Origin: Lachnospiraceae bacterium
GTDB lineage: Bacteria > Bacillota > Clostridia > Lachnospirales > Lachnospiraceae
Reading direction: 5' to 3'
Assembly: GCA_900168235.1 (NCBI GenBank)
Contig: FUZG01000004.1
Location: 186,001-250,000, forward strand
Length of the DNA stretch: 64,000 bases
The notes under the pieces were generated by a model. It was not told the DNA's origin. It was given only the letters and a program-made list of their open reading frames with translations, and did not search any database. This document shows, one piece after another, positions 6,254 to 14,242 of this stretch. Position 1 is the stretch's first letter. Every line of letters starts with the position of its first letter. The position numbers were made by a program, and so were the translations under genes.

Positions 6254-8023
6254 TTAATGCACCACTACCCTGTTTTTGCCATTTTCCTTTGCGTCATAAA
6301 GAGCCTCGTCCGCTCTGGAAAACAGTTCATCGAAGGACTCTCCTGCACGGAACTCTGTGAGACCGATACTCAGTGTCTTCTTTCCCACTTCATCGAAATC
6401 CATCTTTTCGACTGTCGAACGTATCCGTTCCATGCAATTTTTTGCATCATCAAGAGTGATATCAGGCAGCAGGATGAGAAATTCTTCGCCGCCCCATCGT
6501 CCTAAAAGTCCCTTTTCGACCTTATTTACTTCTGTATCCATAACACCCGCGATCTGACTCAGGACCATATCACCCGCAGCGTGTCCATATGTATCATTAA
6601 CCTTTTTGAAATCATCAATATCAAGTATAGCCACCATCACAACTTTCTTATTCTGCTGTGCACGGTTTATGGCTTTTCTTGCAAGCTTCTCTATCTTTCT
6701 GCGATTGTAAATACCGGTAAGCTCGTCCGTATCAGCTATTTTTCTGAGCTCAGCGTTGGCTTCGCGAAGCTCTGCAGAAGTTACATTTATAAACGTTGCC
6801 AGCCTGCGGACCATGGAAATCTGCCCATGCATCTTTTCAACCTCTGATGCTTCGATGACTTTTTCTGTGTCATCTACAGGATGAAGCTTCACCGCAGGAC
6901 CTTCCCGCATGGCTACGGCAATGAGCGTCACATGATGCTCGATCAGGTAGTTATCCATACGCATGATCTCACCGCTGGAATAAAATCCTGCTGTAGGCGC
7001 AAGCCCGGCAAAAGGAAATGTCTCCTTGTTTATGAGATGCTTCCAGTAAAGACGGCGTACTCCGCAGGAATAAAGAAAGATGCCTTCCGGAGAGAACTTT
7101 TCAAGCTCACGGCGCATCGCCGTAACATCCCCCCGAATCACTTCCGGATCACCGTAGGAGAGATTCACCGTAGAACATTTTTCTACATCTGCAGCGAGGA
7201 GAATAGAACCATCCTCTCTCCGGCATGAAAAAGGAAGTCTAAGAACCTCGAAACCATGCTGATGAGACATGATAGGAAATTCAAGAATATTAGAAAAGAA
7301 GTCATCATCCGCCTGAATATCCAGATATTTGCTGTAAACATCGCCCGCCGGCTTAAAATCAAGCTCAAAAAGACGTCTTCCCTCGATACGTGTTACTCTG
7401 AGATCACGCCCAAGCGGCTTCCAGCCTATGGCATGACGTATATCGATATGAAGATCGTCTCCCTTATAAATAACAAGTGCAATCGCATCAGGGATCACCC
7501 TGTCATGGTCAAGGACAAACGTCTCCGGTCTGTCAATCTGCTCGTTGGCACTTCCGCCGCCAAAAACAGGTATTCCGGCACGGCATTTTTCAACTTCGTT
7601 AAGAATTTTATGGCAGTTTATCGTCTTAAGCGTAACAAAAGTCTCCGCCGCCGCAATATTTGGAACCGAATCTATCGCTTCCCTTATCTCGGCGCCGATC
7701 GTAGATTCCTGTCCCGGTTCACACGGGAATAATCTGACCTCAATATCCGTTGACTTAAAAATAGAGACGGACATGACGAGACCCGGATCTGCAAGATGAC
7801 CGTCACAGATATCTCCGTTCGTACTGGTTCCGACAATATGCGCGTCAGGAAGTTCTTTCAAAATTGCGCCTTGTACTTCACGGATCATTTTTTCATCACT
7901 GCGCATGGAAAAAAGGTGAAAAAGCACTGACCTGACCTCATGACGGCCGATCCATTCTTTCACCTCAGATAACGCCGGCAGCACCTCTAAGGTTTTTCTG
8001 ATCTCATAATTAAACTGCTTCAT
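6254..8023 (-). CDS. FIST-domain diguanylate cyclase
   Basis: A 589-residue cytosolic protein with FIST_N (about 30-225) and FIST_C (about 230-380) sensory domains and a C-terminal GGDEF domain (about 430-589). The GGDEF domain has DELTGIYNRR, DIDDFKKVNDTYGHAAGD and the active-site loop GRWGGEEF, so it should make cyclic di-GMP. The RxxD product-inhibition site expected just before the loop reads VEKG, so feedback inhibition is probably absent. FIST domains are thought to bind small ligands, possibly amino acids. No transmembrane segment or signal peptide is visible. The start at 8023 follows an AAGG site. It is monocistronic and divergent from xpt. Confidence 0.92.
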   Translation of the reverse strand: MKQFNYEIRKTLEVLPALSEVKEWIGRHEVRSVLFHLFSMRSDEKMIREVQGAILKELPDAHIVGTSTNGDICDGHLADPGLVMSVSIFKSTDIEVRLFPCEPGQESTIGAEIREAIDSVPNIAAAETFVTLKTINCHKILNEVEKCRAGIPVFGGGSANEQIDRPETFVLDHDRVIPDAIALVIYKGDDLHIDIRHAIGWKPLGRDLRVTRIEGRRLFELDFKPAGDVYSKYLDIQADDDFFSNILEFPIMSHQHGFEVLRLPFSCRREDGSILLAADVEKCSTVNLSYGDPEVIRGDVTAMRRELEKFSPEGIFLYSCGVRRLYWKHLINKETFPFAGLAPTAGFYSSGEIMRMDNYLIEHHVTLIAVAMREGPAVKLHPVDDTEKVIEASEVEKMHGQISMVRRLATFINVTSAELREANAELRKIADTDELTGIYNRRKIEKLARKAINRAQQNKKVVMVAILDIDDFKKVNDTYGHAAGDMVLSQIAGVMDTEVNKVEKGLLGRWGGEEFLILLPDITLDDAKNCMERIRSTVEKMDFDEVGKKTLSIGLTEFRAGESFDELFSRADEALYDAKENGKNRVVVH

Positions 8024-8957: not shown

Positions 8958-9704
8958 TTACACGAATGATTTACTGATAAAACTATACATCTCATCAGTA
9001 AGCCCATAGAGCTCCTTTATCATACCGCTTTCGATGACTTCCTTCGGAGATGCACACTCTGCGCTTCCGTCCTGCCTCACCATAAGGACGCGCTCCGAGA
9101 TCCGAAGCGCGAGCTGAGGTTCATGCAGAGTCATGATGATGCTCACACCCTCTGATGAAAGCTTTTTCACTACATCCATGAGATCCAGTTTATGACGGAT
9201 ATCAAGATATGACGTAGGCTCATCCATTATCAGGTACTCAGGCTCCTGACATATCGCTCTCGCGATAAGCGCTCTCTGCTTCTGACCATCGCTCAGCGCT
9301 TCATAGGATTTATCTGCAAGATCTCCGATATTCATGAGTTCCATAGCTCTGCCAGCCGAGGACTGATCATCCTTGCTGAAAAGCCCCAGGCTGTCACTGT
9401 ACGGAAGCCGTCCTGCCATTACCACATCCCTGCAGGTCATATGCTGTGTCCTGACTCTCTCCGTCGTGACTATAGACATACGCTTCGACAGCTGCTTTAC
9501 CGGAATATGCTTAATATCATCCTTTCCGATAAAAACCGTGCCCCCGAGGGGTTTTATCTGTCCCGATATGCTTTTCAGCAGTGTGGATTTTCCTCCGCCG
9601 TTCGGACCTATAAGAGAAAGCACTTCTCCTTTTCCGAGTTCCAGACTCAAGTCCTGTATGATCACATTTTTATGATAGCCTGCTTTAAGATTTTCAATTC
9701 TCAC
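8958..9704 (-). CDS. FecE/BtuD-type ABC transporter ATPase
   Basis: A 248-residue ATP-binding subunit of an iron-siderophore/haem/cobalamin-class importer. It has Walker A GPNGGGKST, the Q-loop region, signature LSDGQKQRA, Walker B YLIMDEPTSYLD and the switch His in TLHEPQL. Its start overlaps the permease gene by 11 bases. It is the last gene of the riboswitch-controlled operon. The ATPase sequence cannot tell iron chelates, haem and corrinoids apart; the upstream cobalamin riboswitch favours corrinoids or related tetrapyrroles. Confidence 0.93.
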   Translation of the reverse strand: MRIENLKAGYHKNVIIQDLSLELGKGEVLSLIGPNGGGKSTLLKSISGQIKPLGGTVFIGKDDIKHIPVKQLSKRMSIVTTERVRTQHMTCRDVVMAGRLPYSDSLGLFSKDDQSSAGRAMELMNIGDLADKSYEALSDGQKQRALIARAICQEPEYLIMDEPTSYLDIRHKLDLMDVVKKLSSEGVSIIMTLHEPQLALRISERVLMVRQDGSAECASPKEVIESGMIKELYGLTDEMYSFISKSFV

Positions 9705-10716
9705 GATTCCTATGTCTCCTGATTATCATAAAAATAACTATCGGCGCACCAAAAAGAGAAGTGACCGCAGAAATATTCAGCTCGGTCGGAGCAAATATCC
9801 GTCTTGCAAGAAGATCGCTCAGCAAACAAAAAATTGAACCTGCCATAAAGGACGCCGGTATCAGTATTATGGGCTTTGAGGATTTTAATGACTCTCTCAT
9901 TAAAAACGGAACTGCAATTCCGATAAAGGAAACGGGGCCTGCGTATGCCGTTACGCATGCCGACAAAATGCTGGACATCAGGATTATCGCAACGCGGCAC
10001 ACCCTGACATTCACACCTACACTTCGTGCATAATTTTCCCCAAGGCGGAACGCATCCAGACTTTTTGACAGGAGCATTACAAGAACCATCGTTATTCCGA
10101 CAAGGAAAAAGCAGAATAATGCTCCCTTCATATCCGCTCCTGAAAAGCTTCCCTGTGACCAGCTGTGAAGGTTCACTATGTCAGAATCATCAGCAAATGC
10201 AATGAGAAAGTCCGTAACCGAACTGCAGATATAGCCTATCATGATACCCGCAGCAAGAAGCGACGCCATATTTTTCACACTGTTTGAGATCAGGATTATA
10301 AAACCGGTCGCTATTATAGAACCCGCAAAAGCCGTGAGAACCAGGAGCACAGACGATGACTTTCCGCTTCTTCCAACTATGAAGATCAAAAACAGCGCGA
10401 CAGTCATCTTTGCGCCGGAAGATATTCCAAGAATATACGGTCCTGCAATAGGATTTGCAAAATACGTCTGGAGCAAAAAGCCCGAAACTGCCAGTCCTCC
10501 GCCGAGTATCAGCGTCATAAGCGCCCGCGGAAGCCTAATGTCCATTATTATGTTCCTGCTTTTAATATCACTTGTTCCCGTAAAAAAGATTTCCAGTATC
10601 TTTTTCATGTCAACCTGCACTGTCCCCACGCACAGATTGAGGATAAATGAAATTATTAAAATAAATAGCAGTGCGGCAAAAACGATCACTGTACGGCTTC
10701 GTGCATTTTTTTGCAT
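9694..10716 (-). CDS. FecCD-family ABC transporter permease
   Basis: A 340-residue membrane permease with about ten hydrophobic segments. FecCD/BtuC signature blocks are visible: IRLPRALMTLILGGGLAVSG, YFANPIAGPYILGISSGA, and the C-terminal AYAGPVSFIGIAVPFLMR, which contacts the ATPase. It would form a homodimer with two copies of the ATPase encoded downstream. It starts 11 bases after the binding-protein gene. Substrate class is as for the operon: tetrapyrroles, siderophores or corrinoids. Confidence 0.93.
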   Translation of the reverse strand: MQKNARSRTVIVFAALLFILIISFILNLCVGTVQVDMKKILEIFFTGTSDIKSRNIIMDIRLPRALMTLILGGGLAVSGFLLQTYFANPIAGPYILGISSGAKMTVALFLIFIVGRSGKSSSVLLVLTAFAGSIIATGFIILISNSVKNMASLLAAGIMIGYICSSVTDFLIAFADDSDIVNLHSWSQGSFSGADMKGALFCFFLVGITMVLVMLLSKSLDAFRLGENYARSVGVNVRVCRVAIILMSSILSACVTAYAGPVSFIGIAVPFLMRESLKSSKPIILIPASFMAGSIFCLLSDLLARRIFAPTELNISAVTSLFGAPIVIFMIIRRHRNREN

Positions 10717-10727
10717 GAGTATCTTCC

Positions 10728-12272
10728 TTACTTCAGCTTATGGAAAAAATCAGTATCTTCTGACTCATTCCTAATTACTTTACCAAGATCATCAATTATT
10801 TTACCTGTTTTATCGGCGTACTGGTAAAGCGATTTATCTGTATAAAAAATATTCCCCTCTTTAAATGCCTTGAAATCAGAAAACGTTACATCAGAATCCA
10901 TAAGATCCTGCAAAGAAGCAGGCGCTCCAACGATCGTTGCATTGTAGATCACGATGTCTGCATTTTCAGCATATCCGTAAAATTCTTCCGTACTGATCGT
11001 AACCTGAGAATTATTACCCTCTTCATCATCTGTCACAGGCGACAGGTAATCTCCTCCTGCCATTTTAACCATTTTTGCAAAATAGTCACTTCCCCTTCTC
11101 GTGACTATCTGATGGTTAGAATTAAGCGAAAAGATCACGACCTTTTTTCCTGTGGATTCAAGATCATTTAATGCATCCACATAGGCTTTCTGAGTATTAA
11201 AGGCAGCCTCCGCTTCAGATTCTTTTCCTGTCAAAAGACCGTACACTTTTATCCATTCACAACGTCCGAGAGGTTCCGGTTCATAGCTGGATCTGTCGAT
11301 AAAAACAGGAATTCCGAGCTTTTCGATTTTTTCCTGAACCTTCGGCACGTGAAGTATCATCGTGTTTTCGATGGCAAGGTCGATATCATCCGCCACCATC
11401 CGTTCATAGTCAGGCGCGCTGTATTTTCCGCCATAGATCAGTTTTCCGTCATCCATAGCTTTTTTAGCTGATTCAATATACCATCCGTCGCGATCGATAC
11501 CTGAAAGTGCAATATTTTGTACAGCAGAAACTGCGTCAAACTGGCACATGACTCCGGAAGCCGCGAGATATATGCGTTCAAGCGGTTTTTTCAAGATTAT
11601 GATATCATCTGAAAGCTCATCCTCCCGAACGCTTGCCGATGAATCACTTTCCTCAGGCATGACCAGATATTTCCGCCCGTCATCAACGCAGATAACAGCA
11701 TAGTTATCCGTATACCTGTGGATCACAAAGCTTTCCGCATGATCATTTTCATCAGTGGAAATATACTCGATTCCCGGTATTTCCGGTGCTGACAGATCCT
11801 TTTTATCTCCTTTAAGAGCGTCCGCCGTTTCATCATCCTCAGCCCCAGCGGAATCTCCGCTGTCCGCAGTTGTTCCATCACCATCGATCAGCTTAAAATG
11901 AAGCGTATACTCGATAAGGTGCGGTGTGCTCATGGCAACGGTATCAGCTTTCACAGTCATATCCTTATCAAGGACCACGGGAATGACAAATTCCGAATTA
12001 CCCTCTGTGTTTACAGGCTCATAGGTTTTGTCATCCACGATCATGTAGTCATAATTTTTGCTGCTCCAGATAATATCCGCGTATGCTTTGCCCTGCCTGA
12101 TCTCTATCCTGCATGGACTTTCTATATGAGCTCTTCCACTGCCTCCCGTTAAATCAACAGATGCGGTGTATTCCCCATCGGAAATACCACCGCATCCTGC
12201 TAATAATAACGAGATCAGCAGGAAAAGCAATATGCTCTTAAGCCTGATCATCAATCCCTGCTTATTTCCCAT
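10728..12272 (-). CDS. Lipoprotein substrate-binding protein with extra N-terminal domain
   Basis: The protein has a lipoprotein signal (LLISLLLAGCGG). Two domains follow. Residues about 27-130 form a beta-rich domain beginning DGEYTASVDL with the hallmark WSSKNYDYMIV. Residues about 230-510 form a class III periplasmic-binding fold (TroA/BtuF/FhuD type), with ERIYLAASGVMCQFDAV and LGIPVFIDRSSYEPEPLGRCEW. A charged linker rich in Asp and Glu lies between. Start choice is ambiguous: Met at 12272, or the Met at 12251 that has an AGGGA site and gives a tidy signal peptide. The extra domain resembles that of the chelatase encoded upstream. It delivers substrate to the FecCD permease. Confidence 0.88.
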   Translation of the reverse strand: MGNKQGLMIRLKSILLFLLISLLLAGCGGISDGEYTASVDLTGGSGRAHIESPCRIEIRQGKAYADIIWSSKNYDYMIVDDKTYEPVNTEGNSEFVIPVVLDKDMTVKADTVAMSTPHLIEYTLHFKLIDGDGTTADSGDSAGAEDDETADALKGDKKDLSAPEIPGIEYISTDENDHAESFVIHRYTDNYAVICVDDGRKYLVMPEESDSSASVREDELSDDIIILKKPLERIYLAASGVMCQFDAVSAVQNIALSGIDRDGWYIESAKKAMDDGKLIYGGKYSAPDYERMVADDIDLAIENTMILHVPKVQEKIEKLGIPVFIDRSSYEPEPLGRCEWIKVYGLLTGKESEAEAAFNTQKAYVDALNDLESTGKKVVIFSLNSNHQIVTRRGSDYFAKMVKMAGGDYLSPVTDDEEGNNSQVTISTEEFYGYAENADIVIYNATIVGAPASLQDLMDSDVTFSDFKAFKEGNIFYTDKSLYQYADKTGKIIDDLGKVIRNESEDTDFFHKLK

Positions 12273-12278
12273 AATTAA

Positions 12279-13904
12279 TTACTTTATAACTGCTCCTGCG
12301 TGCTCAACATAGATCTTCTGAACATCAGCGATTCCGCCGAGACCTGCGATCTGGCAGTCTACGCTGTCAAAGGAACCATCTGCCTCGAAACCACTCTTCC
12401 AGGAATCCTCTTCATCGCCTGCCATGTCGTTATTTGCATGATCTCCTGCAACAACCATGAGAGGACGAAGGATAACCTTCTTGTAGCCGTTCTTCTTTAC
12501 GTTCTCGATAACATTGGAAAGCTCTGTTTCTTCCGGCTCACCTTCAACAGTACCGATGAAAACATTCTCGTAACCAAGCTTTTCCATCTGAGTCTGCATC
12601 TGGTTATATGTAATATTTGCAGTGTGTGATGTTCCGTGACCCATGAATACAAATGCTGTTCCGTCTTCCTTTGCTGCATCAAGGCTGTCGAAACCTGCTG
12701 TCTTTACAGCTTCTGCTGTGATAGCCTTTGCAACTGCCTCTTTATCCTTATTGATGACACTTGCATCTTTTCCAACTTCGCCGAGAAGAGGCTCTGCAAC
12801 TGCTACAGACTCAAACTTATCCTTGTAGGAATCAACAGTTTCCATGAGCTCATCGTACTCAGCGCCGTGCATCAGGTGAGTAGGCTGGATAACGAGATTC
12901 TTTACGCCGTTATCAACAGCTCTCTGCATTGCCTGCTCCATGTTGTCGATCTTTTCGCCGTCTCTTGCATTTACATGATTGATGATGATCTGTGCTGTAA
13001 ATGCTCTTCTTACTGCCCAGTCAGGATATGCCTTTGCAAGTGCCTTCTCGATACCGCCGATATCCTCTGCTCTGCTGTCATTAAAGGATGTACCAAAGCT
13101 TACCACAAGGAGCTCGTTATCGCCGATCTCATCGCCGTTGAGCGGATCATCCTTGGAAGCATCGCCTGTATCTCTTCCGAAGTAGTCAGGGTCAGCATTT
13201 TCACCCTCTACCATTTCCTTCTGCTCATCAGTAAGTGCATCCCATGCAGACTTTGCATCAGCGCAGAGCTTATCTGTATCCTCGCTCCACTCCTGAACAT
13301 AGATAGAATCAATGAGTGATGCAACATTATCTGCTGCAGCCTGATCATCGTCACCTGCAGATGCCTGTACGTCAGAAACTGTAACCTCGTGGTCATACCA
13401 CTTACCCTTTGTTCCGATAAGTGCCAGCTGGAAAGATTCACCGATAGCCGGAACCGGAACATCAAAGCCGTTTACTTCTTCTGTTGTACCGTCATCATAT
13501 TTAACAGTGTCTGTTGTGGGCTGGAGAAGCTCTGCGCCGTCTTTCTGCGCATCCTCTGCTGTGCCCGGGAAAAGATTTACGATATTTTTTGAAGGAAGTG
13601 TGATATGGATCGTCATCTCACCATCTTTTACAGTAAGAGTTCCCATATCATCATAAGCTTCATTTACATGAAACATGGAACTGTCTGTTGTGAACTTTGC
13701 GCTGTAAACGCCGTCTTCAAGAGCTGAAGCATCTGCTGCCTCTTCTGAAGCTGCCTCAGTTGTCTCCTCAGCTGCAGCTGTTGAAACCTCCGTTGAAGCT
13801 GCTGCGTTCTCAGTTGCAGCATTTTCTGTCTTCTGACCACAGCCCGCAAAAGATGCTGCGACCATTGCTGCAGCCATAACGACTGCAAGTGTCTTCTTTT
13901 TCAT
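12279..13904 (-). CDS. Surface lipoprotein with CbiK-type chelatase domain
   Basis: A 541-residue protein with a clear lipobox (MVAASFAGC, Cys about residue 22) and a low-complexity Ala/Glu/Thr linker. A domain of about 120 residues comes next (DGVYSAKFTTDSSMFHVNEA to GKWYDHEVTVSD), then an anaerobic cobaltochelatase (CbiK) domain from about 265. Candidate catalytic or metal residues are retained: His in MGHGTSH (about 422), Glu in GTVEGEP (about 453) and His in VVAGDHANNDMAG (about 488). CbiK inserts cobalt into sirohydrochlorin in the cytosol, but this copy is exported and lipid-anchored. The start at 13904 is chosen because AAAGGAGG precedes it and it begins the signal peptide; an upstream GTG has no such site. 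It is the first gene under the cobalamin riboswitch. Confidence 0.88.
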   Translation of the reverse strand: MKKKTLAVVMAAAMVAASFAGCGQKTENAATENAAASTEVSTAAAEETTEAASEEAADASALEDGVYSAKFTTDSSMFHVNEAYDDMGTLTVKDGEMTIHITLPSKNIVNLFPGTAEDAQKDGAELLQPTTDTVKYDDGTTEEVNGFDVPVPAIGESFQLALIGTKGKWYDHEVTVSDVQASAGDDDQAAADNVASLIDSIYVQEWSEDTDKLCADAKSAWDALTDEQKEMVEGENADPDYFGRDTGDASKDDPLNGDEIGDNELLVVSFGTSFNDSRAEDIGGIEKALAKAYPDWAVRRAFTAQIIINHVNARDGEKIDNMEQAMQRAVDNGVKNLVIQPTHLMHGAEYDELMETVDSYKDKFESVAVAEPLLGEVGKDASVINKDKEAVAKAITAEAVKTAGFDSLDAAKEDGTAFVFMGHGTSHTANITYNQMQTQMEKLGYENVFIGTVEGEPEETELSNVIENVKKNGYKKVILRPLMVVAGDHANNDMAGDEEDSWKSGFEADGSFDSVDCQIAGLGGIADVQKIYVEHAGAVIK

Positions 13905-13930
13905 AATTCCTCCTTTGAAACAGAACACAA

Positions 13931-13959
13931 AGAAAAAGTCTCCACCAAAGTGAAGACTT
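13931..13959 (-). terminator. Intrinsic terminator of the riboswitch expression platform
   Basis: On the minus strand AAGTCTTCAC, a TTTG loop and GTGGAGACTT form a 10-bp stem followed by TTTCTTT, ending about 27 bases before the chelatase ATG. Placed directly after the cobalamin aptamer, it should stop transcription when ligand is bound. Confidence 0.8.
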
Positions 13960-14039
13960 AAACACGCACTAAAATATCAGCAAATGCATTACATTTGCCT
14001 TCATCCTTCGTACAGTCAATTCCTCGTGACCCGGTTTCC

Positions 14040-14242
14040 CATGTACGACGACAGGCAGGTTTCCCGACTTATTGATAATGCAGTCATGTATCTCACAACT
14101 GCGGCGCATTTTCTCACCTTCCCGGATTTAATCCAGTGGTATTTTCATTATCAAGAAAAAGCTCTCAAAATACGGTGACGAGATCGCGCGGGATTCTGAC
14201 CCGCTTCCCTTTTAACTTGTGACGAACAAGCACCTTCCGTCA
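14040..14242 (-). promoter_or_regulatory. Cobalamin riboswitch aptamer
   Basis: Read on the minus strand the leader contains the 5' element AAGGTGCTTG (14236-14227), the core AGTTAAAAGGGAA with its GCGGG/CCCGC stem (about 14188-14218), ACCACTGGATT, and the B12 box AAGTCGGGAAACCTGCC (14070-14054). These are the conserved parts of the class I cobalamin (adenosylcobalamin-type) aptamer. It is followed by a small hairpin and the terminator at 13931-13959, so control is probably transcriptional and OFF with ligand. The whole 395-base gap 13905-14299 is explained by aptamer, platform and promoter; the promoter hexamers were not clear. Confidence 0.9.

Follow-up and report, generated by a model that had tools for sequence, protein, structure and literature searches.

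A cobalamin-riboswitch operon joining an exported CbiK-type lipoprotein and NEAT domains to a FecCD-type importer, and its possible role in supplying corrin biosynthesis

Introduction

Why would a bacterium carry a CbiK-type chelatase on the outside of its membrane, and encode it beside an importer and behind a cobalamin riboswitch? The question is raised by a four-gene operon on the minus strand of a 64,000-nucleotide stretch of DNA from a Lachnospiraceae bacterium (assembly GCA_900168235.1, contig FUZG01000004.1, positions 186,001 to 250,000; this whole stretch is called the window, and its numbering is used below). A sequence-only reading had placed at 8958-14242 a B12-riboswitch operon with a lipobox-bearing CbiK and a Fec/Btu-type importer, and had suggested metal insertion into, or removal from, tetrapyrroles at the cell surface before uptake. 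The operon itself was confirmed by an Rfam match to RF00174, by Pfam matches and by the lipoboxes in the sequence, and the span proved accurate to 10 bases or fewer. Along the minus strand, the order is riboswitch, terminator-like hairpin, ribosome-binding sequence, CbiK lipoprotein, substrate-binding lipoprotein (SBP), FecCD-type permease and ATP-binding cassette (ABC) ATPase.

The reading that we favour, tentatively and with a probability of roughly 0.45, is that this operon would provide a B12-repressed supply of an early cobalt tetrapyrrole, most likely cobalt-sirohydrochlorin, from outside the membrane to the corrin pathway. Such a supply would bear on a published gap. In PMC6461909, 180 species, primarily Firmicutes, are described as having cbi genes without the tetrapyrrole front end, precursor uptake or a novel pathway is considered, and Porphyromonas gingivalis is named. 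The operon is a concrete and testable candidate for a precursor route in common gut genera, namely Faecalibacterium, Gemmiger, Blautia and Butyrivibrio.

Linkage to riboswitches and to corrin biosynthesis

Bacterial genomes were scanned for the lipoprotein, and the best 80 of at least 592 confirmed stretches were retained; the counts over these 80 loci describe the nearest relatives. The loci belong to Lachnospiraceae (Blautia, Butyrivibrio and others), Oscillospiraceae (Faecalibacterium and Gemmiger), Eubacterium and spirochaetes. The expected co-occurrence of lipobox-CbiK with the importer was borne out by this survey, which showed strong linkage: SBP and FecCD permease were both on the same strand in 64/80 loci, some stretches stopping at contig edges, and in 75/80 a B12-class riboswitch was found on the same strand, no more than roughly 0.5 kb upstream of the CbiK of the operon. 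Seventy-four of these riboswitches were detected by a profile built from 23 cmscan-found riboswitches of such loci in relatives and the window (some genomes of the 80 loci having also supplied riboswitches to the profile), and the last one, at L112, by the AdoCbl riboswitch family RF01482 (50.7 bits). A cmscan recheck of eleven loci confirmed all six profile hits that it covered, including the weakest three (L136, L134 and L130), and took in five of the six profile misses, L079 being left out. No upstream riboswitch was found at L105, L113, L123 and L092 by cmscan, nor at L079, at a contig edge, by the profile alone.

The operon is also tied to genes of corrin biosynthesis. The ABC ATPase is fused to a CbiP-type (cobyric acid synthase) region in L035, L087 and L109, an assignment made for the L035 locus by comparison with its own CbiP, and to CbiD in L080 and L096, the former being a Faecalibacterium locus with this operon. 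At L041, CbiP, CbiC, CbiD and CbiF are located between SBP and FecCD. The operon genes continue straight into cbi genes in five genomes (G222, G200, G195, G175 and G243), and in G208 this holds for the importer half only.

Co-occurrence was then measured in a sample of 147 same-class genomes drawn evenly, using as marker NEAT-A, the N-terminal domain of the CbiK lipoprotein described below. NEAT-A was found in 9 of these genomes, every one of them among the 41 that have CbiD (hypergeometric 5e-6); counted in the 9 is G112, whose NEAT-A match occurs without this operon. Setting aside G112 and the window's own genome (G000), 7/7 NEAT-A genomes had CbiD (7e-5). Of the 106 genomes lacking CbiD, none had NEAT-A. 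CbiD was present in 38/40 tested genomes behind named loci (40 of the 80), and in 41/48 genomes of the genus. Among the eight other same-class NEAT-A genomes, RF00174 was found at the operon in six, from 5 families; it was not found in the stretches examined of G208 (L183 by cmscan, L182 and L183 by profile) and G112 (profile).

Taken together, the B12 riboswitch, the CbiP-type and CbiD fusions and the co-occurrence with CbiD argue for a role in corrin biosynthesis, by cobalt insertion or capture, and against the removal of haem iron. The broad idea of metal chemistry on tetrapyrroles at the surface before uptake fits the linkage and the haem-like relatives of the importer, but its iron-removing version is disfavoured by the B12 and cbi context.

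A diverged NEAT-like domain in each lipoprotein

A diverged NEAT-like domain, which had escaped the sequence-only reading, lies at the N-terminus of both lipoproteins: NEAT-A in the CbiK lipoprotein (around residues 63-182; 13362..13721, minus strand) and NEAT-B in the SBP (11889..12179, minus strand). Both were recognised by searching sets of homologues against PF05031, by AlphaFold2 models and by Foldseek. In both sets, PF05031 came up more often than any other family (E up to 0.1), matching 44/62 homologues for NEAT-A (best 2.2e-5) and 30/60 for NEAT-B (best 4.2e-6, not the window copy). Since the proteins of the window stay under the Pfam NEAT cut-off of 32.8 bits, NEAT-A reaching 15.3 and 17.9 and the window's own NEAT-B giving no match to Pfam NEAT, the identity is clear only from the homologue sets and the models. 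The mean pLDDT of the models was 85.7 for NEAT-A and 88.9 for NEAT-B. For NEAT-A, the best Foldseek match was the NEAT structure 4myp (E 6.4e-5, probability 1.00, with modest TM-scores of 0.50/0.60), and ranks 1-13 all went to NEAT proteins or to Shp, which transfers haem, the first only having E <0.001. For NEAT-B, ranks 1-35 were all NEAT proteins, eleven of them at E <0.001, with TM-scores up to 0.71. Alignment of the two sets with hhalign gave a probability of 95 percent. As modelled, both N-terminal domains are NEAT beta-sandwich folds.

Haem-binding NEATs carry a YxxxY motif that provides the haem ligand. In the registers that we infer, NEAT-A shows YDHxV, with the last-strand Tyr in 62/62 homologues, and NEAT-B shows HxxxY, with the His in 58/60 and the Tyr four residues on in 60/60. 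Judged from strand position rather than from a structural alignment, the NEAT-B His may occupy the axial Tyr-ligand position of haem NEATs. Across the relatives, CbiK, NEAT-A, NEAT-B and SBP occur both fused and split, in many combinations.

NEAT-A-like domains were also seen in two large proteins. At L084, a second cobalamin riboswitch (9736-9925, 109.4 bits), apart from the CbiK unit, precedes an exported-looking protein of 1232 aa with two such domains (L084:10074-13769), whose frame runs off the end of the locus; we read it as a NEAT surface protein under a B12 riboswitch of its own. In G112, an exported-looking protein of 1073 aa begins with a NEAT-A-like domain (L179:9453-12671); it stands outside any such operon, near other secreted repeat proteins.

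The chelatase domain and its invariant residues

The exported lipoprotein of 542 aa (12279..13907, minus strand) is made of a signal peptide, NEAT-A and a CbiK domain. The signal peptide (13845..13907, minus strand) is visible in the translation, with the lipobox FAGC and Cys22 next; the CbiK domain (12285..13112, minus strand) was assigned by Pfam (E 8.6e-74) and by alignment. It passes the PF06180 (CbiK) cut-off with 248.6 versus 26.2 bits and misses that of the CbiK equivalog NF047852 (194.4 versus 400 bits), which is also missed by the cytosolic CbiK of the same genome (236). The best match in the Protein Data Bank (PDB) is FetB (9b86, E 2.1e-37).

The candidate catalytic His/Glu/His of the sequence-only reading are indeed kept. 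H424, E455 and H490 align with Salmonella enterica CbiK, whose corresponding residues we take to be the catalytic His/Glu/His, and they are invariant in 103/103 operon-type rows, which include near-duplicates (e.g. L041 and L101) and the signal-peptide-less L064; 111 rows were kept in the alignment, 10/121 having been dropped for length. In a tree of 72 rows, with only a subset of the operon rows included, the operon CbiK sequences form one clade with support 100/99, made of 58 operon rows and one signal-less row, and 13 of 14 cytosolic rows fall outside it. The order among the cytosolic rows is unsure because their branches are very long. A heuristic lipobox scan was positive for 93/121 CbiK frames and for 0/10 cytosolic frames.

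Two variants of the architecture deserve mention. The frame L064:7320-8171 encodes a CbiK of the operon clade, in the same operon context, with no recognisable signal peptide, while L078:5734-8526 and L136:843-4136 each encode one lipoprotein frame with two CbiK domains and NEAT-A.

The importer

The SBP is a lipoprotein of 514 aa (10728..12272, minus strand; lipobox LAGC visible in the sequence), in which NEAT-B is followed by a Peripla_BP_2 domain (10830..11468, minus strand; E 1.7e-24). A single-sequence phmmer search against the PDB returned nothing useful, so a profile was needed to find relatives. Its best match was Lmo2184, which we take to be a haem-uptake binder, followed by siderophore-type binders and IsdE (seven matches); BtuF was not among the matches at E up to 0.01. 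The FecCD-type permease (9694..10716, minus strand; E 1.5e-76) gave a profile that ranks the haemin permease HmuU first, then FhuB and BtuC, and its best NCBIfam model is BtuC, with 207.9 bits under the equivalog cut-off of 334. The ABC ATPase is encoded at 8958..9704 (minus strand; E 1.2e-31). The matches to HmuU, Lmo2184 and IsdE, together with a NEAT fold that binds haem in known members, count towards a tetrapyrrole as substrate.

Cytosolic steps are scarce in genomes with the operon

CbiM is a usual B12-linked cobalt transporter. It was above cut-off in 16/60 NEAT-A genomes versus 26/32 CbiD-positive, NEAT-A-negative controls (Fisher 6e-7); the 60 include two genomes without CbiD and one, G112, without this operon, and CbiM was the one cobalt transporter that the search covered. 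In a post hoc split, CbiM frames shorter than 300 aa were found in 6/60 versus 22/32, one of the six being weak.

No CbiX match at E <1e-20 was found in 62 operon-side genomes (G004 and G112 included), versus 5/18 controls. Among the 60 operon genomes with CbiD, a table that leaves out G112 and G004, a second, cytosolic-type CbiK was present in 18 (only as a fragment in G094), and 42 had neither a second CbiK nor a strong CbiX match, leaving the exported protein only. A lipobox was found in 37 of these 42 by script and in four by eye (G006, G022, G026 and G028); G195 has a signal peptide without lipobox. By comparison, 31/32 controls had a CbiK match or one of CbiX size, counted irrespective of signal peptides. 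SirC was above cut-off in 10/42 exported-only genomes versus 15/18 of those that carry another CbiK (Fisher 3e-5) and 13/18 controls; in 32/42 exported-only genomes, it was thus not above cut-off. In the examined stretches only, HemA, HemL, HemB, HemC and CobA-HemD were found in 1, 0, 0, 3 and 4 of 41 exported-only genomes (G008 was left out of this table though it is one of the 60); among the 18 genomes that carry a second CbiK, the respective counts were 8, 7, 6, 9 and 9. Finally, hemA, hemC and cobA-hemD lay near the cytosolic CbiK in 7/7 genomes, selected for having this CbiK on one contig with SirC, CbiM or CbiD.

At two loci, a cytosolic CbiK lies in one frame with an ABC ATPase region that its context marks as CbiO-like (L201:10009-11703 and L202:13590-15266), in genomes that have CbiM. 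These frames are a parallel pairing, on the inside, of chelatase with transporter.

Proposed function and points that weigh against it

The function that we favour, an outside supply of an early cobalt tetrapyrrole, would proceed as follows. When B12 is low, the riboswitch would permit transcription, and the two NEAT domains would bind a flat tetrapyrrole at the cell surface, into which the lipoprotein CbiK would insert cobalt, or whose cobalt form it would hold. The SBP would take over the tetrapyrrole, and the FecCD/ABC importer would carry it inward, to be processed further by CbiL and the rest of the cbi enzymes. We infer in this scheme the repression of this operon by B12, the substrate, the direction of the metal reaction, the order of hand-over and the transport itself. 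Cobalt-sirohydrochlorin is favoured because it is a flat cobalt tetrapyrrole of B12 synthesis and the product of CbiK.

A bolder form of the proposal, which we consider doubtful as a whole, is that the operon would form a full entry route into B12 synthesis on the outer side of the membrane: CbiK would metallate sirohydrochlorin outside, the NEATs would relay the cobalt-tetrapyrrole and the importer would feed CbiL, the whole replacing HemABCD, CobA, SirC, cytosolic CbiK and CbiM. It would then also supply the uptake step that is missing from accounts of the tetrapyrrole precursor salvagers, among them P. gingivalis.

Several observations speak against the proposed supply function or weaken its evidence. 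In the genome of the window itself, the cbi cluster includes hemA, hemL, hemB, hemC and cobA-hemD, and a SirC match and an orphan cytosolic CbiK (L068:9759-10565) are present as well; given these cytosolic genes, the operon would be there an extra route and not the sole one. Its close relatives G014 and G031 are exported-only, yet encode SirC, HemC and CobA-HemD outside the cbi cluster, and 8 more exported-only genomes have SirC. CbiD is missing from 2/40 operon genomes. G004 encodes CbiD while lacking any match to CbiK or CbiX, and G134 gave no match in the CbiK search; because such gaps occur there too, a missing cytosolic chelatase is not proof alone. Sirohydrochlorin made inside would need to be exported first. 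As for the counts, NEAT-A matched in 78/80 loci, a biased number, since NEAT-A peptides were among the search patterns. The hem counts reflect linkage on unmatched stretches rather than proven absence and are not genome-wide, the stretches of the 18 genomes having been partly chosen around CbiK, and even of these 18 no more than about half showed the hem genes. The controls come mostly from other families, and the p values overstate independence because the genomes are related and some are incomplete.

Competing explanations

The best surviving of the rivals, unlikely though we hold it to be, is that the operon imports finished cobamides or late corrinoids as an equivalent of BtuFCD, the CbiK-like lipoprotein and the NEATs merely binding corrinoids. 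Bacteroides BtuG is a surface lipoprotein that binds corrinoids, and B12 riboswitches commonly control B12 importers. The BtuC model, best for the permease in NCBIfam, and the two operon genomes without CbiD point the same way, as does the receptor IhtA of the P. gingivalis iht operon, called a BtuB homologue in PMC3764172. However, B12 users that do not synthesize the cofactor should need an importer most, and it is in the CbiD-negative genomes of the class sample that NEAT-A is absent (0/106). The permease misses the cut-off for BtuC, and at E up to 0.01 the SBP profile picks up binders of haem or siderophores but not BtuF. Nor would a mere binder need the chelatase triad, which stays unchanged in all 103 rows.

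More improbable, in our view, is an importer of cobalt for B12 makers without CbiMNQO, in which the exported CbiK would be a cobalt(II)-binding protein and the imported chelate no corrin precursor. The low frequency of CbiM (16/60 versus 26/32) speaks for it, and G086 and G095, which have CbiM, carry an ABC ATPase region in their cytosolic CbiK frame, a parallel pairing of chelatase and transporter. The NEAT domains and the HmuU-like permease suggest instead a tetrapyrrole and not a free ion, and cobalt supply alone does not account for the absence of SirC in 32/42 exported-only genomes.

A haem system, in which the lipoprotein would remove haem iron or exchange its metal, the role suggested for IhtB/FetB of P. 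gingivalis, appears very unlikely, and plain haem-iron scavenging was rejected as the best reading on account of the B12 control and the cbi fusions. In its favour, the CbiK domain finds its closest PDB match in FetB (9b86, E 2.1e-37), the NEAT fold is present, HmuU, Lmo2184 and IsdE are among the nearest relatives of the importer parts and the IhtB/FetB literature is in keeping with it, but the riboswitch at 75/80 loci, the CbiP-type and CbiD fusions and the co-occurrence with CbiD have no clear role in iron scavenging, and the candidate axial-ligand position of NEAT-B, in the register assigned above, is His in 58/60.

Comparison with known systems

The nearest known system is the iht operon of P. 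gingivalis. IhtB and FetB are, we assume, the same protein; papers of 2000 reportedly dealt with IhtB as a chelatase and with the corrin pathway of P. gingivalis. PMC3764172 describes IhtA as a BtuB homologue and a coenzyme-B12 riboswitch upstream, and PMC10913741 describes IhtB as a CbiK-like lipoprotein thought to take iron from haem, while IhtC-E supply the binding protein, the permease and the ATPase. In addition, FetB is reported, in a review citing Phonok 2026 (PMC13402209), as a manganese-inserting porphyrin (Mn-protoporphyrin) chelatase. The sequence-only reading had implied that an exported CbiK would be unique. This was rejected on the iht operon, in which IhtB/FetB is exported too, likewise behind a B12 riboswitch. 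P. gingivalis lacks precorrin-2 synthesis according to PMC6461909, which fits the import model.

Both operons thus share a B12 riboswitch, an exported CbiK-like lipoprotein, an SBP, a permease and an ATPase. The window operon differs in that none of its four genes encodes a TonB-dependent receptor, that it has NEAT-A and NEAT-B, and that its relatives show CbiP-type and CbiD fusions and cbi linkage; its hosts are Gram-positive bacteria and spirochaetes, and IhtB/FetB is read as a haem or Mn-protoporphyrin chelatase. With S. enterica CbiK and Desulfovibrio vulgaris CbiKP, the window protein shares the fold family and the catalytic His/Glu/His; CbiKP, whose structure is among the PDB matches, is an exported CbiK as well. 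Unlike these two, the window protein is a lipoprotein fused to or beside a NEAT domain, belongs to its own clade and scores below the NF047852 cut-off. The Gram-positive Isd/Hbp haem relay resembles the operon in its NEAT fold, surface lipoproteins and FecCD-type importer, whereas the operon adds the B12 riboswitch, the chelatase fusion and the cbi context, and its NEATs are under the Pfam cut-off. BtuFCD has in common the FecCD permease, the ATPase and the B12 riboswitch; the window SBP is, however, unmatched to BtuF, the BtuC cut-off is missed and NEAT-A is confined to CbiD-positive genomes of the class.

In the open-access literature searched, no paper was found that joins a NEAT domain with a cobalamin riboswitch or with CbiK, nor one that joins cobaltochelatase, lipoprotein and cobalamin riboswitch. 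As far as these searches go, the NEATs of a B12 regulon, the fusions of importer ATPase and corrin enzymes, the spread in gut Firmicutes and spirochaetes and the missing cytosolic steps are new. An outside supply of a cobalt tetrapyrrole would extend NEAT domains beyond haem and offer an alternative reading of IhtB/FetB.

The riboswitch leader and neighbouring features

The leader of the operon contains a full-length cobalamin riboswitch aptamer (RF00174, 14037..14252, minus strand; model 1-189 of 189), which scores 91.4 bits (E 2.4e-21) against a gathering score of 31.5. It is the sole above-threshold Rfam match of the window and the single RF00174 match of the 3.79 Mb genome. Between the aptamer and the start codon lies a hairpin resembling an intrinsic terminator, with a 10-pair stem and then a T run (13936..13959, minus strand), in a consensus scan that gave 12 terminator-like sites in the region versus 4.0 in shuffles. 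This hairpin is likely the expression platform of the riboswitch, judging from its position. The CbiK lipoprotein starts at an ATG at 13907, with GGAGG upstream.

At L092, a cobalamin riboswitch lies downstream of CbiK (L092:10590-10786, 105.2 bits), and a Clostridiales-1 RNA was found at 9532-9704. Outside the operon, the window encodes at 6254-8023 a protein of 589 aa, whose C-terminal part is, by eye, GGDEF-like (GRWGGEEF) and whose N-terminal part is possibly a FIST-type sensor.

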